Positions 5,862-60,322 of a stretch of DNA of 64,000 nucleotides are shown here, one piece after another. The notes below the pieces were generated by a model that saw only the letters and a list, made by a program, of their open reading frames with translations, ran no database searches and was not told the DNA's origin. Each line of letters opens with the position of its first letter. Position 1 is the first letter of the stretch. Origin of the DNA: a virus; the IMG/VR virus record IMGVR_UViG_3300032331_003094, positions 18,213 to 82,212 of that record; one strand, given 5' to 3'. The position numbers and the translations under genes are program-made.

Positions 5862-6881
5862 TCAAACGATGCCGTCATCTTGGATGAAGCTAAAGCCGGT
5901 GGTAACGAAATCTTTGTTCAGGATTTCAAAACCAGCGTACAATTGCCAAATCAGGATGATGAAGCGGCTGAAGTCATCGTTGTTGTTGATCAACACCTGG
6001 GCGTTAGGACCGCCGATGCCGACGCCGATGGCTTGGGGACCGAAGAAGTAACCTTGAGCAACTTCTTGGGTGGAGTAGTTGGAACCACCGTCAAAAGATG
6101 CACTCAGGGTCTTGGTGGGGAAGTTGGTCGATTCGAAGAACTTCACACCTTCAAACTGCACGCCGGTAGGCATAACAGGTTCACCAGCCAGGAAATAACC
6201 TTGGCCAGCTTGGGGACCCATGTAGAAGCTGGAGTTGTTGGGCATCGCAGGGTTGCCCATGTACATCCCCTGACCGGGATTACCAGCGTAACGAGCGATC
6301 TCACGGAAGTCAGGATCACGCCGCAGGTGCAGCATGAAAGTAGGATCGCAGATGCAACGATACAGACCATCGGAATAGGTCGGCACGTTACGCTTGCGCA
6401 AGTCTTTAACAACGTTCAGTAAGTCAGTACGGACTTGGAACTGTTGAACTTGAGCACCATATTCAGTGGAAGTGTAGGAAACACGACCGGAAGAATCTTT
6501 AGCTTTGTTACCAGCGAAGTAGTAACCACCTTGGGTGGTAGAAGCTTGGCCATTGGCTTCAGCTTTGGACAGTTCGTCAATGAAGACGCGGTCACGCCAC
6601 CGACGATAGTCATCCAGCAGGGTGAGGCTACCGATGGACTGGTGGAACATATTCAGGTTACCGGTATCCAGCAGCAGACGCTGGGCGGTAATCAGGGTTT
6701 CACGAGCAATCTTGAAGGTCGAAGGCTGGGTCGGATCGCCCGGGTCCGCAGGACCGGTGTATTCCTTAAGCACCACCAGGACTTTCTCCTTGGTGATGTT
6801 ACGGCTATTGGCGGTACCGATGGTTTGGTCGGCAATACGCTCGCGGCTATCCTTCGTACCAGGGGTTCCCCAGAACTTGTA
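5862..6881 (-). CDS. Major capsid protein, exon 3 (C-terminal 339 residues)
   Basis: This frame encodes the bulk of the major capsid protein. It reads from YKFWGTPGTKD at 6881 through TGPADPGDPTQPSTFKI to the stop at 5862. No start codon of its own is needed: it joins exon 2 at 7773 so that a CGT codon (Arg) is followed by TAC (Tyr). An internal GTG at 6776 is only an apparent start. The exon follows portal and scaffold in gene order and has the biased codon use of an abundant protein. Capsid assignment rests on gene order, expression bias and family resemblance. Confidence 0.85.
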   Translation of the reverse strand, partial: YKFWGTPGTKDSRERIADQTIGTANSRNITKEKVLVVLKEYTGPADPGDPTQPSTFKIARETLITAQRLLLDTGNLNMFHQSIGSLTLLDDYRRWRDRVFIDELSKAEANGQASTTQGGYYFAGNKAKDSSGRVSYTSTEYGAQVQQFQVRTDLLNVVKDLRKRNVPTYSDGLYRCICDPTFMLHLRRDPDFREIARYAGNPGQGMYMGNPAMPNNSSFYMGPQAGQGYFLAGEPVMPTGVQFEGVKFFESTNFPTKTLSASFDGGSNYSTQEVAQGYFFGPQAIGVGIGGPNAQVLINNNDDFSRFIILIWQLYAGFEILNKDFVTTGFSFIQDDGIV

Positions 6882-7772
6882 CAGGTGTTATCCCAAAGGC
6901 TCTTTATCCTTTGGTTCTTACGGTTTATCATCCCGTAAGTTCAGACTATATCATCAAACAATTACTGATTGTTTGTCCTGCGCTCGTGCCCTCTTATCGT
7001 CTTCATCTGCAAAAGCAATGTTAAGACTCGCTGCGTATGTTTCAGAATTTTTAGTTCTGTTTTTATAACGCAGGGTCACTTTATTTTGTAACGTTGAGTG
7101 CATGTGGGGCTTTAGTAACGTTACAAAATCAGGCATCTCTCCACTTAATATTCTTAAACGATAGTGCGCTCTATCTAAATAGAGTTTTGGATTTACGTTG
7201 GCAATATCATGAATCCAAGAGGCAATTATTTTTGCTTCTTGTTCCATGCAGTAAGTAGCAAGTAGGCCAACATTGTTGGAACTAACCACGCAACCGTCAT
7301 CCATCCAAAAAACAGCTAACGCTTCCAGTCCTAAATCACATAAGTAATCTTTGGAAAAAAGTTTTTTACCTTTTGGATAAAACTGTTCCCTCAATGGAAC
7401 CAGTAATTTACTGGTAACCATAGACTGGCAAGAATAATAAGTTTTCAAGGTGCGCTTATCGTAAACCTCTCTTGAATTTACTTTTCCGTTTGTACCAAGT
7501 TCTTGATTAATTTTGGTCATTTTCCACTCTAAAAACTGTTTTTGTTTTTGAGAGTGTGTAAAAGATAAGTAACAAGTGTTCTTACCTTTTGGATAACCTA
7601 AACACCCGTCGCCAAGAGTACAGGCTTTGGAAAAGGAGAGGCTCACTGTGTGACCAAGGGTAGTCGTTGGACCTTCCGACCATTTCTGGGCGGCTTGGCT
7701 GCTGATTGCCCAATGCTAACGCATCGAAGGGTTTCCAGCAATTCACAGGATTTAAAGACCGCTACAAACTCA
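6882..7772 (-). other. Group I intron in the major capsid gene (intron 2)
   Basis: The minus-strand exon ends GACCGT and the intron begins TGAGTTTGTA followed by GCGGTC. GCGGTC pairs with GACCGT to form P1, with a U-G wobble exactly at the splice site. The preceding TTTGTA pairs with the first bases of exon 3 (TACAAG) as P10. Core landmarks follow: a TGGAAACCC P4-like segment, GGTCCAACGACTA (P7) and GATATAGTC near the 3' end, then P9-like hairpins. The intron ends in G (6882). Its 891 nt contain a LAGLIDADG gene. Splicing restores one continuous capsid frame. Confidence 0.93.
6954..7646 (-). CDS. LAGLIDADG homing endonuclease (intron-encoded)
   Basis: A 230-residue protein inside intron 2, same strand as the intron. 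Two LAGLIDADG-type helices are visible: CTLGDGCLGY near residues 10-20 and ALAVFWMDDGCV near 109-120. The second has the WMDDG form of the single-chain LAGLIDADG_2 family. Such enzymes cut an intronless allele and promote intron homing. The codon use is AT-rich compared with the surrounding capsid exons. The ATG at 7646 lies within the intron, after the conserved P7 sequence. Confidence 0.9.
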   Translation of the reverse strand: MSLSFSKACTLGDGCLGYPKGKNTCYLSFTHSQKQKQFLEWKMTKINQELGTNGKVNSREVYDKRTLKTYYSCQSMVTSKLLVPLREQFYPKGKKLFSKDYLCDLGLEALAVFWMDDGCVVSSNNVGLLATYCMEQEAKIIASWIHDIANVNPKLYLDRAHYRLRILSGEMPDFVTLLKPHMHSTLQNKVTLRYKNRTKNSETYAASLNIAFADEDDKRARAQDKQSVIV

Positions 7773-7907
7773 ACGGTCTAATTGAACGGTTTGACCAGGC
7801 TGGCGGGTGAAGTCGTGGACAACCACGGGCTCTACTGCCATTTCGGCAATGTAGGCGGGGTGGGGACGATAGAGTTCCGCACCCAAGATTTTTGGAAAAT
7901 CGTTCTC
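7773..7907 (-). CDS. Major capsid protein, exon 2 (45 residues)
   Basis: Minus-strand frame reading ENDFPKILGAELYRPHPAY through VHDFTRQPGQTVQLDR. It ends at 7773 with CGT at the 5' splice site of intron 2 and joins exon 3 in phase. Its upstream end is set at 7907 because the group I core of intron 1 would then end in G at 7908. The exact 3' splice site of intron 1 could shift by a few bases. The segment between the introns has no other in-frame start that makes sense. Confidence 0.85.
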
Positions 7908-8110
7908 CTGGTCTCTAGTTTCTTAGAGGGGTGGACTATCTCTTCATCCCTGTGGGATGCCGGACGCTAAATCTGGTATTACGTAACAAGTGCGTGTTAC
8001 ACCCAGTAGTCTCTGCACGTTCCAATCACGGTCTTGATTGGCTTCGCTCAGGATTACCCTCGGCTTTACGTTAGGGCTTCCCTGAATTCATCCGGTTTGC
8101 ACTCATCAAT
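7908..8110 (-). other. Group I intron core (intron 1 of the major capsid gene)
   Basis: Minus-strand sequence shows classical group I landmarks: CCGGATGAATTCAGGG (P3/P4 side), GGTAATCCTGAGCGAAGCC (P6/P5 side), GTGCAGAGACTACTGG (P7), a CATCCC/GGGATG hairpin (P8), GATAGTCC (P7 3' strand) and a CTCTA/TAGAG hairpin (P9) just before exon 2. P3 can form between CCGGA and TCCGG. The 5' boundary is not resolved. It may lie near 8120, or the intron may reach back to about 8733 and include the HNH gene in antisense. Confidence 0.85.
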
Positions 8111-8167
8111 TGCTCGATGAGGTGACAACGTTGAGCGTTCAGTTGAGGCATGCTATGCTTTGGAAAA

Positions 8168-8185
8168 ATGTTGATAAACAACATG
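8168..8185 (+). promoter_or_regulatory. Hairpin ending in the HNH start codon
   Basis: ATGTTG and CAACAT form a perfect 6-bp stem with loop ATAAA, and the last two stem bases are the AU of the AUG at 8183. Translation of the nuclease may be limited by this structure. There is no Shine-Dalgarno sequence. Confidence 0.55.
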
Positions 8186-8728
8186 GAACCAAAACTTGTA
8201 CCTGGGTTTGGTAACCTTTACTTAACGGAAGACGGTCGAGCTTTCAAGAAGAAACTTAATGAACAGGATCAAGAAGAACTTGAAGAACTTCCTATTAGTT
8301 CGACCAGTGTTTATGACAGGGTTTCAGTTCTTGTAGATGGAAGAAAGAAACGCTTTCACTTACACGTGTTAATGGCAATTGCTTTTCTTGGGTTAGACCT
8401 AAGAGCCCATGGCAATCATAATTTTTCTCTTCAGGTAAATCATTTAGATAACAACAAGCGAAATAATCGACTTGATAATCTGGAAATCGTTACCAAACAA
8501 GAGAACTTAACGAAGGCTTGGGAATCTGGTTGTTACCAAAATAATGGTTTTGCCAGTAAAGGGAAACCGAAGAAGTCTTTAAGAAAGTTTTCTTCGGAAG
8601 ACGTGATGCAAATTAAAGCTTTGAAGGAGGCTGGGCTTTCATATCGAAAGATTGCCGAAAAGTTCAACTGCAATCACGGAGCTATTTACCAAATCCTAAA
8701 AGGGCATACCTACCAGGATCTGAACTAG
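8183..8728 (+). CDS. HNH homing endonuclease with C-terminal helix-turn-helix
   Basis: A plus-strand gene of 181 residues, opposite to the capsid gene. It has an N-terminal strand region (PGFGNLYLTEDGRAFK), the HNH core (HLHVLMAIAFLG, then VNHLDNNKRNNRLDNLEIVT) and a C-terminal helix-turn-helix (GLSYRKIAEKFNCNHGAIYQIL), a layout typical of phage homing nucleases. The start MEPKLVPG is preferred to an upstream ATG at 8150 because a hairpin ends in it and homologues of this type begin near that sequence. It lies next to or inside intron 1. Whether it mobilises that intron is inference. Confidence 0.85.
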   Translation: MEPKLVPGFGNLYLTEDGRAFKKKLNEQDQEELEELPISSTSVYDRVSVLVDGRKKRFHLHVLMAIAFLGLDLRAHGNHNFSLQVNHLDNNKRNNRLDNLEIVTKQENLTKAWESGCYQNNGFASKGKPKKSLRKFSSEDVMQIKALKEAGLSYRKIAEKFNCNHGAIYQILKGHTYQDLN

Positions 8729-8895: not shown

Positions 8896-9918
8896 TCACT
8901 CCATTACAAACAGTTTGTTTGCAACGGTTCCGGGTTGAGCTTGATTCAGAACACGCCAGGCGTTCTGGGGATCACGGTTCATCACTTCACTGAAACTACC
9001 CCAGAAGTTTTCGGGTTGCTGGGGGCCAGCAGCGTTGGGGGGAGCCGGAAGATTGGCAATACCACCATTGATGGGCTGAGTGCGATAACCACGGGATTCG
9101 AGGTCGGCTTCGCTTTCGTACACGGGGTACGGACCTTCAGGACCAAAGAAACGCAGCGTGTAATCGCTGAGAACATCAGGATTGGTCAGGATTTCGTTAT
9201 AAGCCAGATTCTCTTGGTGCTCATTGACCGAGAAGCTGGCAAAACGTGCCATCACATCATTGGCTTGGGTGCCCCAGGCCACTGCGCTATCCAGCATCCC
9301 TTCAAGTTGAAGGGCGTAATTATTTAGAATTGCCGGAGCTTCTACCCCGAACGCGTCGAACACCTGACGGCTTTCGTTGCTCAGGTTGTAGTAATCCGCG
9401 ATTGCCCGGTCCGTTGCCAGGGCTTGCTCCTCCGACGAAAGCGTCGAAGAGGTTTGGGAATAGCTGGGAGAGTATGCCGGGTTGAGATATGAGGTCGGCA
9501 TCCCCGATTGTTGCGTAGCTGGGGCGCTTGGAGTCCCAAAGTTGGCCGGGGCGTACTGAGGAGTCGTCGTCGACGGTTGACCCTGGAAGGGGGATTGGAC
9601 TGGTGAGCTCAGCAGGCCCACTACCTTGTTGAACGCCGATTCCCAAGGGTTGCTCACTGGTGCTTCCGCTGGCGCCGCCACCGAATAGTTCGGTTGGGAT
9701 TGGGGGGCGTACTGAATAGGGGCGGATTGGTAGCTGGTAGTCGCTTGAGGTATCGCTTGGGGGTAGCTGGTACCCACCTGATACGCCACCGGAGCCGCCT
9801 GCTGGTAGCTCGGGGCTGGTGCTGCCACTGGTGCCGGAGCTGCCATCACGTAGCTGCTGGGTGCTACTGACGGTGCTTGGCTCGTCTGTGGGGTCGATTG
9901 GACGGTAGCGTCCTGCAT
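8896..9918 (-). CDS. Scaffold (capsid assembly) protein
   Basis: A 340-residue protein between portal and major capsid, the usual place of the scaffold. Residues 1-155 are low-complexity and rich in Pro, Gln, Ala and Ser. Residues about 160-340 look folded and helical, including acidic stretches (YPVYESEADLES), as expected of scaffolds. The ATG at 9918 has an excellent ribosome site (AAGGAG, 7 nt). The first 200 codons overlap the portal gene in the +1 frame. Codon use is GC-rich like the capsid genes. Confidence 0.8.
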   Translation of the reverse strand: MQDATVQSTPQTSQAPSVAPSSYVMAAPAPVAAPAPSYQQAAPVAYQVGTSYPQAIPQATTSYQSAPIQYAPQSQPNYSVAAPAEAPVSNPWESAFNKVVGLLSSPVQSPFQGQPSTTTPQYAPANFGTPSAPATQQSGMPTSYLNPAYSPSYSQTSSTLSSEEQALATDRAIADYYNLSNESRQVFDAFGVEAPAILNNYALQLEGMLDSAVAWGTQANDVMARFASFSVNEHQENLAYNEILTNPDVLSDYTLRFFGPEGPYPVYESEADLESRGYRTQPINGGIANLPAPPNAAGPQQPENFWGSFSEVMNRDPQNAWRVLNQAQPGTVANKLFVME

Positions 9919-11668
9919 AACTCATCTCCTTTTGTAATGCTTCTAAGGTTCGATACAGATAGGGTGTAAGGTCCAGCCTTGGATCTGCAGCCATCGGAAG
10001 ATCCGGTGACTCTGGGTGGGGGGTCTGCATCATTCCACCCACCAGGCGAGCAAACTGCGAGAACGCATTCTGCAATTCGCCTACCATCCTGAACGGGAAA
10101 CCGCTTAACATAGCGGCTCGTTCTTCATCCGTCTTAGACGGAAATAAGAACTTCAGTGCTTCAATGCTATCAACACCTAATTCTTGTAGGTTTCTTACAA
10201 CGATAGAGTTGTTTAAAACGTCTTGAGTTGACTCTTCATAAACAGGTCCAGTCCAACGCCACAAGACGGTTAAGTCCCCATCGGGAATAAGGCCTGTTAC
10301 TCCGGGGGGAATAATTTTTGTCTGCATGCAGGCCATCATGATTTGCTTGACCCTTTCGTCAAAACCAATCATTGCTTGCTTGTACAAATCATTTTCTTCT
10401 GGCGGTGCATCTTCTGGCGGTTCAATTGGTTCTTCCAGGCCGGATGCTTTGGCTAAGGTTGCGCGGAACAAACGTTCCTCTTGGAAAATAATTAACTCAA
10501 GACAACGTGCAATACCGTAAGAATAAATGGCAGTTGCTTTTTTCTTTGCTGTGGCTGATACACGACCAAATAATGATTTGTATTCAGTTGCAGTTACGCC
10601 AGCTGAAATGGATAGTTCATCGACACCACCAAGAGCTGTACGAATCTCTTCTCGAAATTGGCGAGCAAATGCGTTTTGATCACCAGTGATAGCATCTGGA
10701 ACAATGTAACCAACACGGTCGTTTGGCTCCAGGTTTGCAATAACGCGTGGTACACGAATCTGACCATCGATTCCGCGACCGATTGGATCTTGTTTAAATG
10801 TTGACCTACTTAAAGAAGACAAGCTGCCAAACCCTGAGTTGGCTGCAATCGATGGACGTTGAACTGTAGTGTCTGCCCCGGACTCCATAAGGTCTGTTTT
10901 GGGACGAGATGAAAGAAGGGTTGGATTACCAAAGAACTGAACGTTTTTGCGCATGGTGCGAACCAATTCGTCGTGCACGACGATGTGGCTGGCCATGGCG
11001 TCAAATTCGCCAGTACCTTCAGTTGAAAACCCTTTGGGGTTGTTAAAGATTTCAACGCAAGGAATAAAGCCCAAGCTGTTTTTAAATGTTTTGGTTTTAC
11101 CAAGGGCTGTATAGTTTGGTAAATCAAACGACATCTCACTTTCCGAGTGAGTTTCTTCAATGGTACGTCGTTTAATTGAAAGCCTAATAAAACGTTTGGC
11201 GCCTTGGCTGCCAAGTGTTGCAGTCCCGGTAAGATTGGAAACATTTACATTGTCACCAAAGCCATTACCTTGTTTGACTTTATAGCTGTAGATGATTACA
11301 ACTTCATCTAACTCACCATCTACGTTGTAGTAGCTGCGATATTCGTGACTACGGAAGTAATACAGGCGGTAATTTGATTTGGTTGGACGAATATAAAAAA
11401 TGCCTTTGCCGTCACATAGGAAATAATCCCAGATTGAATCCAGGCGCACATCAAGTTGGTTATATTTGATTACACGGTCGAGAAAGTCTTTGCGCTGGTT
11501 GCCAAAGTTATCTTGAGTTGGAAAAAATTCCACACCTTGACGAATCCCAAACATTTTCATTTGGGAAAGATGTGACCCCACAATCATGGTGTCAACATGA
11601 GAACTAGGATCTTTCTCGACTGCCGCGTCGATAATTTCTTTTAAACGCGCCTTGGTATCAACAGCCAT
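9320..11668 (-). CDS. Portal protein with long disordered C-terminal extension
   Basis: A 782-residue protein between large terminase and scaffold. Residues 1-580 look like a folded portal, with alternating helices and strands (FGIRQGVEFFPTQDNFGN near 40, VDSIEALKFLFPSK near 500). From about residue 585 to the end the chain is Ser/Gly/Pro-rich and probably disordered, ending in a basic segment (RKPSGVRRVRGRSSGNSK). The last 200 codons share DNA with the scaffold gene in another frame. The ATG overlaps the stop of a 48-residue gene (UAAUG). Portal identity rests on size, gene order and fold-like pattern. Confidence 0.8.
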   Translation of the reverse strand: MAVDTKARLKEIIDAAVEKDPSSHVDTMIVGSHLSQMKMFGIRQGVEFFPTQDNFGNQRKDFLDRVIKYNQLDVRLDSIWDYFLCDGKGIFYIRPTKSNYRLYYFRSHEYRSYYNVDGELDEVVIIYSYKVKQGNGFGDNVNVSNLTGTATLGSQGAKRFIRLSIKRRTIEETHSESEMSFDLPNYTALGKTKTFKNSLGFIPCVEIFNNPKGFSTEGTGEFDAMASHIVVHDELVRTMRKNVQFFGNPTLLSSRPKTDLMESGADTTVQRPSIAANSGFGSLSSLSRSTFKQDPIGRGIDGQIRVPRVIANLEPNDRVGYIVPDAITGDQNAFARQFREEIRTALGGVDELSISAGVTATEYKSLFGRVSATAKKKATAIYSYGIARCLELIIFQEERLFRATLAKASGLEEPIEPPEDAPPEENDLYKQAMIGFDERVKQIMMACMQTKIIPPGVTGLIPDGDLTVLWRWTGPVYEESTQDVLNNSIVVRNLQELGVDSIEALKFLFPSKTDEERAAMLSGFPFRMVGELQNAFSQFARLVGGMMQTPHPESPDLPMAADPRLDLTPYLYRTLEALQKEMSYAGRYRPIDPTDEPSTVSSTQQLRDGSSGTSGSTSPELPAGGSGGVSGGYQLPPSDTSSDYQLPIRPYSVRPPIPTELFGGGASGSTSEQPLGIGVQQGSGPAELTSPIPLPGSTVDDDSSVRPGQLWDSKRPSYATIGDADLISQPGILSQLFPNLFDAFVGGASPGNGPGNRGLLQPEQRKPSGVRRVRGRSSGNSK

Positions 11669-58832: not shown

Positions 58833-59750
58833 ATGCGTAACGGAACTGCCCAACGTCAACGCACTAAAGATAACCCACTAAACCTTGGTTCATTTGACCA
58901 AACGTCTTTGCGTTATCTGAGGGGAACCTTGGGTCCTGTATCAAAACCTATCGGGCGTGCCGACACTTGGGACACGTCTAATGGTGGATATGGCGGTGGT
59001 ACATACAACCATTGGTTTGTGATTAACCTATTGAGAAATGCATGGTTAATAACTGCCAAAGGACCGCCGCGTCCTAAGTATATTCAAGTGGCAGCGTACG
59101 ATTTAAATCAAAATCCAATTCAAGAACGTGCAATTTTTGATGCAGATAGCATTCCGGAATTAGTACAAGGAGAAGTTTATTACCCGTACGTTGGGCATGT
59201 AATGAATGCCCAATCAAATTTATATAATAATTTCAACCCCAACCGCCTTGATAAAGGTGATGATCGATACTTTGTATTGCCCCCAGGGTCTTACTTGTTA
59301 TGTGTATCAACAACACGTAATGAACCCCTTGCCTATGAACTGGGTTTGGTTATTGAAATCGAAGACCTAGAACCCGAGTTGTTACTGGAAACGGGCGGCA
59401 CAAATAAGTTTATTTATGAGAATGAACTAAGCACAGGTAATACGGTTACCATTGGACCTACGTTTAGTATCAACTACACATTGCCTTCTGGCTTTAATGC
59501 ATACACCAGTATTTTGGCCACAATTAATTCAAGCGCTACAGTTACAATACCTGATGATTCAACATGGCTTATTAGTGATGCATCTTTAACGGGTCCAGAA
59601 GATTTTATCTTATGTGACTTGACTCAAAACTATACGGGCGAAGATCAACACATGCATTCATTAGATGAATGGCAAACGGCTTGGCAACGGGAGCATCAAC
59701 AAGATAACCGCTTCCCAGACGTATTCCTCCCGCTGGTAACCACCCAATGA
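58833..59750 (+). CDS. Cyanophage-type virion protein, 305 aa
   Basis: Contains the conserved stretch TYNHWFVINLLRNAWLITAK, PRPKYIQVAAYDLNQNPIQE and RYFVLPPGSYLLCVSTTRNE, which I know from a virion protein widespread in marine cyanophages. Beta-rich, ending in a helical Gln/Trp-rich tail. Likely a tail or head surface protein. It is followed by small genes leading to the lysis region. Confidence 0.75.
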   Translation: MRNGTAQRQRTKDNPLNLGSFDQTSLRYLRGTLGPVSKPIGRADTWDTSNGGYGGGTYNHWFVINLLRNAWLITAKGPPRPKYIQVAAYDLNQNPIQERAIFDADSIPELVQGEVYYPYVGHVMNAQSNLYNNFNPNRLDKGDDRYFVLPPGSYLLCVSTTRNEPLAYELGLVIEIEDLEPELLLETGGTNKFIYENELSTGNTVTIGPTFSINYTLPSGFNAYTSILATINSSATVTIPDDSTWLISDASLTGPEDFILCDLTQNYTGEDQHMHSLDEWQTAWQREHQQDNRFPDVFLPLVTTQ

Positions 59751-59887
59751 TGTATTTTTACAATTGGTTAGTGTGTAAGCTATTTAAACGCTGTCATCTT
59801 GAAATATACACGACACCAGCAGAAGCGTTTAAGCGCTATTGTGATGAGAATCCCTGGGAGAAGGGATGCAAAATTCATGACAACTAA
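59747..59887 (+). CDS. Small protein with aromatic N-terminus, 46 aa
   Basis: ATG 59747 overlaps the previous stop; ends TAA 59887. Starts MMYFYNWLVCKLFKRCHLEI and continues TTPAEAFKRYCDENPWEKGC. Cys- and aromatic-rich. Similar tiny proteins (AEAFKFCNENPW-like) occur in cyanophages. Function unknown. Confidence 0.6.
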   Translation: MMYFYNWLVCKLFKRCHLEIYTTPAEAFKRYCDENPWEKGCKIHDN

Positions 59888-60108
59888 TGAATGACTTTCC
59901 GAATCAAAAAAAGAAAAAAAGTATTTACAAAGAATATTGGGAGGGGGTATCTCCTGAAAATGCATTTGATTCCGTGGATTGTCACAACAAAAGGATGTGT
60001 GTGGCTTGCCGGTTTAGCTGTGGCCAAAAGCAACCGACAGATCAACGATTGGATGAACAGACGAAGACGGTCCAGGGTCCGCCGTCTGGCTACGTCTTTG
60101 ACCGGTAA
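59887..60108 (+). CDS. Hypothetical Cys-containing protein, 73 aa
   Basis: ATG 59887 directly at the stop of the previous gene. Starts MNDFPNQKKKKSIYKEYWEG and has a Cys cluster (DCHNKRMCVACRFSCG) that could bind zinc. It overlaps the next gene by 149 nt in another frame, so one of the two may be spurious. Confidence 0.5.
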   Translation: MNDFPNQKKKKSIYKEYWEGVSPENAFDSVDCHNKRMCVACRFSCGQKQPTDQRLDEQTKTVQGPPSGYVFDR

Positions 60109-60322
60109 GATTGGTAACGGCGTCCAGGCTATTGCAATCCGTCAAGTTCGTAAGTGGGTTGATGAATTACCAAAGGGTCATTCATTGACAATGCGTTGTG
60201 AGTCTGCGTTACCTGAAAAACAATTTCGAGTGTGGAAGAAATGGTTTAAAACACATGAGGATATTAATTGGGAAATATCAGAAGAACACAAATCTTTTTT
60301 CTTTTACAAAAACCGCTGGTAA
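59960..60322 (+). CDS. Basic membrane-type protein, 120 aa
   Basis: Start taken as ATG 59960 (a GGAGGGGG box lies about 12 nt upstream; ATG 59891 is an alternative). Hydrophobic residues 4-24 (IPWIVTTKGCVWLAGLAVA) precede a very basic stretch (MNRRRRSRVRRLATSL). The C-terminus is aromatic. Just upstream of the lysis genes. Could be a holin- or spanin-like factor; unproven. Confidence 0.55.
   Translation: MHLIPWIVTTKGCVWLAGLAVAKSNRQINDWMNRRRRSRVRRLATSLTGKIGNGVQAIAIRQVRKWVDELPKGHSLTMRCESALPEKQFRVWKKWFKTHEDINWEISEEHKSFFFYKNRW

Follow-up and report, generated by a model that had tools for sequence, protein, structure and literature searches.

The stretch of DNA analyzed here (64,000 nt, hereafter the window) comes from a virus record of 82,212 nt and is a contig of an S-EIV1-like cyanophage; the Synechococcus phage S-EIV1 (74% at the nucleotide level) was its sole match among named phages. 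On the minus strand, the window carries 2 overlapping genes. The larger one, the portal gene (9320–11668, start at 11668 and end at 9320), is an ORF of 782 aa, in which codons 1–583 specify the core and codons 584–782 (9320–9919) specify a Ser/Gly/Pro-rich extension that overlaps the second gene. The second one, a probable scaffold gene (8896–9918), is an ORF of 340 aa. Since 1750 nt (3 × 583 + 1) separate the portal ATG from the second ATG, the second ORF lies in the +1 frame relative to the portal. Its Shine-Dalgarno sequence, AAGGAG, lies inside the portal gene at 9926–9931 (minus strand) and is followed by a 7-nt spacer and the ATG. An earlier note on this DNA, made from the letters alone, had described this arrangement. 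The 599-nt overlap (9320–9918, minus strand) with its 2 open frames, the +1 position of the second ORF, the perfect Shine-Dalgarno sequence, and the low complexity of both encoded segments (Ser/Gly/Pro in the portal extension and Pro/Gln/Ala in the N-terminal part of the second protein) were all borne out. Its figure of 200 shared portal codons was not, as the shared stretch comprises 199 portal codons plus the stop.

The earlier note had also named the 2 genes portal and scaffold. For the larger gene, this assignment is supported by both PHROG and fold matches. The 782-aa protein matched phrog_20475 with 967 bits and, weakly, phrog_64 'portal protein' (4.5e-4), which was likewise matched by 19 of 31 members (best 6e-5). 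In a Foldseek search using an AF2 model of the portal, the first 24 matches were all portals or complexes containing them; because the model is of low confidence (pLDDT 37), we regard these fold matches as supporting evidence only. The same model renders the portal extension mostly as coil. Among other named phages, the portal core found no match beyond S-EIV1, even at an E value of 10. The name scaffold, in turn, is plausible only, resting on gene order and layout, as the second protein matched no family in PHROG, Pfam or PDB. In the intron-free relative L016, the second gene lies between the portal and major capsid genes, with one 182-aa gene separating it from the capsid gene. The second protein consists of the Pro/Gln/Ala-rich N-terminal part and an acidic C-terminal part that is helical in a low-confidence AF2 model.

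S-EIV1 (KJ410740.1) possesses the same 2 genes, with a +1 overlap of 554 nt and the same Shine-Dalgarno and start block as the window. Both are annotated as 'hypothetical protein' (AHV82224.1 and AHV82225.1), and AHV82225.1 is placed at 59863–60264, past the portal stop at 59840. Because the annotation of the second gene is limited to these C-terminal 134 aa, the overlap is hidden in the record. The frame of the second gene is open and conserved from position 59287, which would give a protein of 325 aa, and we consider it probable from the sequence that the start was mis-annotated.

To place the overlap in its lineage, relatives were collected from IMG/VR, GTDB genomes and phage records, yielding 216 loci at which both genes could be seen. 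These are loci rather than independent genomes, as some contigs entered more than once with different flanks. Of these, 210 also contain the end of the portal gene, and 198, including the window, have both genes complete. The relatives span freshwater and marine sources, with portal identities as low as 65%; a scan of genome contigs for an outgroup returned 2 near relatives. The second gene occupied the +1 frame at every one of the 216 loci, which rules out a scaffold nested in frame as in lambda C/Nu3. The overlap was kept in 210 of the 210 relatives holding both ends, and its length to the first portal stop ranged from 506 to 668 nt (median 587) among the 198 loci with both genes complete. 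The block TACAAAAGGAGATGAGTT, directly followed by the ATG, was exact in 200 of 216 relatives and one base off in the other 16, and the N-terminal MQDA of the second protein, together with the ideal Shine-Dalgarno sequence, was invariant or nearly so. Portal-frame stops in close relatives had been named in the earlier note as the observation that would speak against a genuine extension. None of the 210 relatives has such a stop near codon 583; in ten the portal stops slightly before the end of the alignment, the earliest not before codon 752. The third frame was open through the overlap in 0 of 198 loci. When portal tails were randomized synonymously, the +1 frame stayed open in ~1–2% of trials per genome on average (1.5–4% for the tail of the window), while synonymous randomization of the N-terminal parts of the scaffold left the portal frame open in 0% of trials. 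Set against such rare openings, conservation in 210 of 210 relatives indicates that the overlap is more than chance.

Selection in the 2 frames was measured from single substitutions, each scored as synonymous or nonsynonymous in the portal and in the scaffold frame, using 50 disjoint sequence pairs after thinning to less than ~96% identity. Within the overlap, dN/dS was 0.20 [0.15–0.25] for the portal and 0.10 [0.08–0.13] for the scaffold; the corresponding values in an earlier analysis of 21 pairs were 0.20 and 0.11. Thus, purifying selection acts on both frames, and both products are selected for their sequence, with the exception of the final portal codons. When the overlap was divided into bins (0–25, 25–50, 50–75, 75–90 and 90–100%), portal dN/dS was 0.18, 0.23, 0.08, 0.47 and 0.59, while that of the scaffold was 0.04, 0.08, 0.12, 0.22 and 0.07. 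The frames therefore partly alternate in strictness, the scaffold being stricter in the first half and the portal in the third quarter. The last portal codons look relaxed, as the value for the final 10% (0.59 [0.17–1.59]) was indistinguishable from neutral. Variability at portal third positions fell from 0.48 in the core to 0.17 in the overlap, where these positions are the second positions of the other frame. Codon usage, which was tried as a guide to the relative age of the 2 frames, was atypical in both.

We weighed these findings against other readings of the overlap. According to one, which follows the GenBank annotation of S-EIV1 in starting the second gene (134 aa) after the portal stop, the overlapping frame is a chance opening in a GC-rich, low-complexity portal tail. 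Such tails contain few +1 stops, as the 1–4% of open randomizations in this genome illustrate, but a late start is at odds with the dN/dS of the scaffold frame in the overlap, lowest in its first quarter, with a frame that is open in all relatives, and with the near invariance of MQDA and the ideal Shine-Dalgarno sequence upstream of it; we consider it very improbable. The converse reading, that the portal ends near residue 583 and its extension is a by-product of scaffold coding, could draw on the low complexity and predicted coil of the extension and on its relaxed last codons. We consider it very improbable as well, given the lack of stops near codon 583 in all 210 relatives, a portal-frame dN/dS that drops to 0.08 in the third quarter, and the 0% of trials in which the scaffold sequence left a portal frame open by chance. 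The extension, which the earlier note had taken to be genuine and uninterrupted, is accordingly upheld by its open frame in relatives and by purifying selection.

The earlier note had further suggested that the overlap might give rise to a portal-scaffold frameshift product. Some three-quarters of relatives have a run of 6 C residues near +190 to +214, read as C CCC CCA in the portal frame, which could be taken as a slip site for such a programmed fusion. The run is absent from the remaining relatives, however, and a −1 shift there would enter the third frame, which no locus keeps open across the overlap. The run is also explained by dual coding of conserved residues. For a +1 shift there is no classical site, and no slip heptamer common to all genomes was found. 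In addition, scaffold-frame stops at portal codons 546 and 582 are invariant, the latter in all 46 representatives examined; since the stop at codon 582 falls just before the second ATG, the scaffold frame is not continued upstream. With a scaffold that has a strong start of its own, we hold a fusion to be very improbable, and the suggestion was not sustained.

Taken together, these results are very probably explained by 2 genuine, co-selected genes that overlap out of frame and specify a ~780-aa portal and an internally initiated second protein, most likely a scaffold. Judged from the open frames, the start site and selection, it is almost certain that both long proteins are produced. The last ~200 residues of the full-length portal would form a Ser/Gly/Pro-rich extension that is probably flexible and in most cases basic at its tip. 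The strong ribosome-binding site within the region of this extension would start the second protein (~320–340 aa) in the +1 frame. An overlap of this size is far too long for the usual coupling of termination and reinitiation, and internal initiation at the strong Shine-Dalgarno sequence inside the portal gene, independent of portal termination, is the best supported route to the second protein. The 2 low-complexity segments would share DNA by splitting strictness along the overlap, such that both stay functional, and we infer a function for the protein tails. The arrangement may also set the ratio of portal to scaffold.

Phages are known to carry out-of-frame overlaps, and the in-frame nesting of scaffold genes is known as well. 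In lambda C/Nu3 and herpesvirus UL26/UL26.5, the scaffold gene likewise lies within another head gene and has a start signal of its own; however, it is nested in frame, so that the scaffold is a fragment of the larger protein, whereas the second gene described here is read in a different frame from its partner, the portal gene. The lambda Rz/Rz1 spanins and the phiX174 D/E and A/B pairs resemble the present case in that 2 unrelated proteins are read from different frames, the second by internal initiation, but those pairs serve lysis or belong to a tiny genome, as opposed to 2 head genes of a ~80 kb dsDNA phage. The literature searched, which did not cover the S-EIV1 paper, yielded no description of portal and scaffold genes in a long out-of-frame overlap kept throughout a dsDNA phage lineage. 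Long out-of-frame overlaps are usually tied to small genomes or accessory genes, whereas here they involve 2 head-assembly genes of a dsDNA phage of ~80 kb, with ~590 nt shared in all members identified, freshwater and marine. The findings correct the annotation of S-EIV1, the only isolate, and predict a portal with a 200-residue low-complexity extension. They also provide a natural dual-coding system, with ~200 sequences, in which the division of constraint between overlapping genes can be tested.

Constraint extends beyond the overlap into the portal gene. Portal codons 496–583 (9920–10183, minus strand) are under strong synonymous constraint as measured by scaled synonymous heterozygosity, which in the freshwater relatives drops from ~0.8 to 0.2–0.55 at codon 496, ~264 nt before the scaffold start. 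A hidden ORF was rejected as its source, as the +1 and +2 frames and reverse frames 0 and 1 contain stops within the block that all 46 representatives share, and many representatives also have stops in reverse frame 2. A tentative explanation, which we hold to be possible but short of even odds, is that these codons form a cis-acting RNA or DNA element that controls scaffold expression in addition to the overlap. The onset of constraint is abrupt in both the freshwater and marine clades, in almost every one of 16 genomes the predicted folding of the block lies below that of its synonymous shuffles, and the freshwater sequences show some covariation. Under a composition-matched local shuffle, the z-scores shrink and the folding signal is weaker (−1.39 vs −0.41 to −0.85). 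The freshwater constraint could, however, partly stem from recombination, and neither an Rfam match within the block nor a sigma-70-like site near the scaffold start was found. Moreover, for the fold derived from freshwater sequences, the share of paired cells drops from 94% to 72% when it is applied to 18 held-out marine sequences, with several helices broken. A conserved RNA structure thus fits the freshwater clade and mostly fails in the marine one, and we do not claim it.

Sequence blocks common to both clades lie at about −258 to −233 and −41 to +30 relative to the second ATG. A promoter motif recurring elsewhere in the window was rejected: the 22-nt block was unique at ≤3 mismatches, and TATCTGTATCG had one other near-match in the window, close to chance. 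The conserved block GG.GTTGAT, upstream, and ATCGATCCC, just inside the scaffold gene (10168–10177 and 9889–9898, minus strand) could form a long-range helix of 8 bp in both clades; as predicted (−259 to −251 with +20 to +28), this helix shows neither a break nor a compensatory change among freshwater sequences. At +5 to +18, a GGACG/CGTCC hairpin shows almost no variation. It is conceivable, though on balance doubtful, that the lineage keeps, along with its 500–670 nt out-of-frame overlap, a cis-element ahead of it, within the portal coding region, by which scaffold initiation is set relative to the portal. Such an element would comprise the 2 common blocks, with the long-range helix perhaps closing ~280 nt around the scaffold start.

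Downstream of the scaffold gene, the window contains 2 matches to group I introns (7502–7782 and 7912–8155, minus strand; 39 and 88 bits, the first below the Rfam cut-off). Both lie between the scaffold gene and a 304-aa C-terminal ORF of the major capsid protein (5862–6776), in the neighborhood of a probable LAGLIDADG-type ORF (6954–7646, minus strand) and a probable HNH-type ORF (8150–8728, plus strand), their types judged by eye. The capsid gene of L016 is uninterrupted (386 aa). The large terminase of S-EIV1 (KJ410740.1:54080–56620) has 846 aa, and the 508-aa terminase of the window matches it in 2 pieces, suggesting that the S-EIV1 protein carries a large insertion absent from the window, perhaps an intein.
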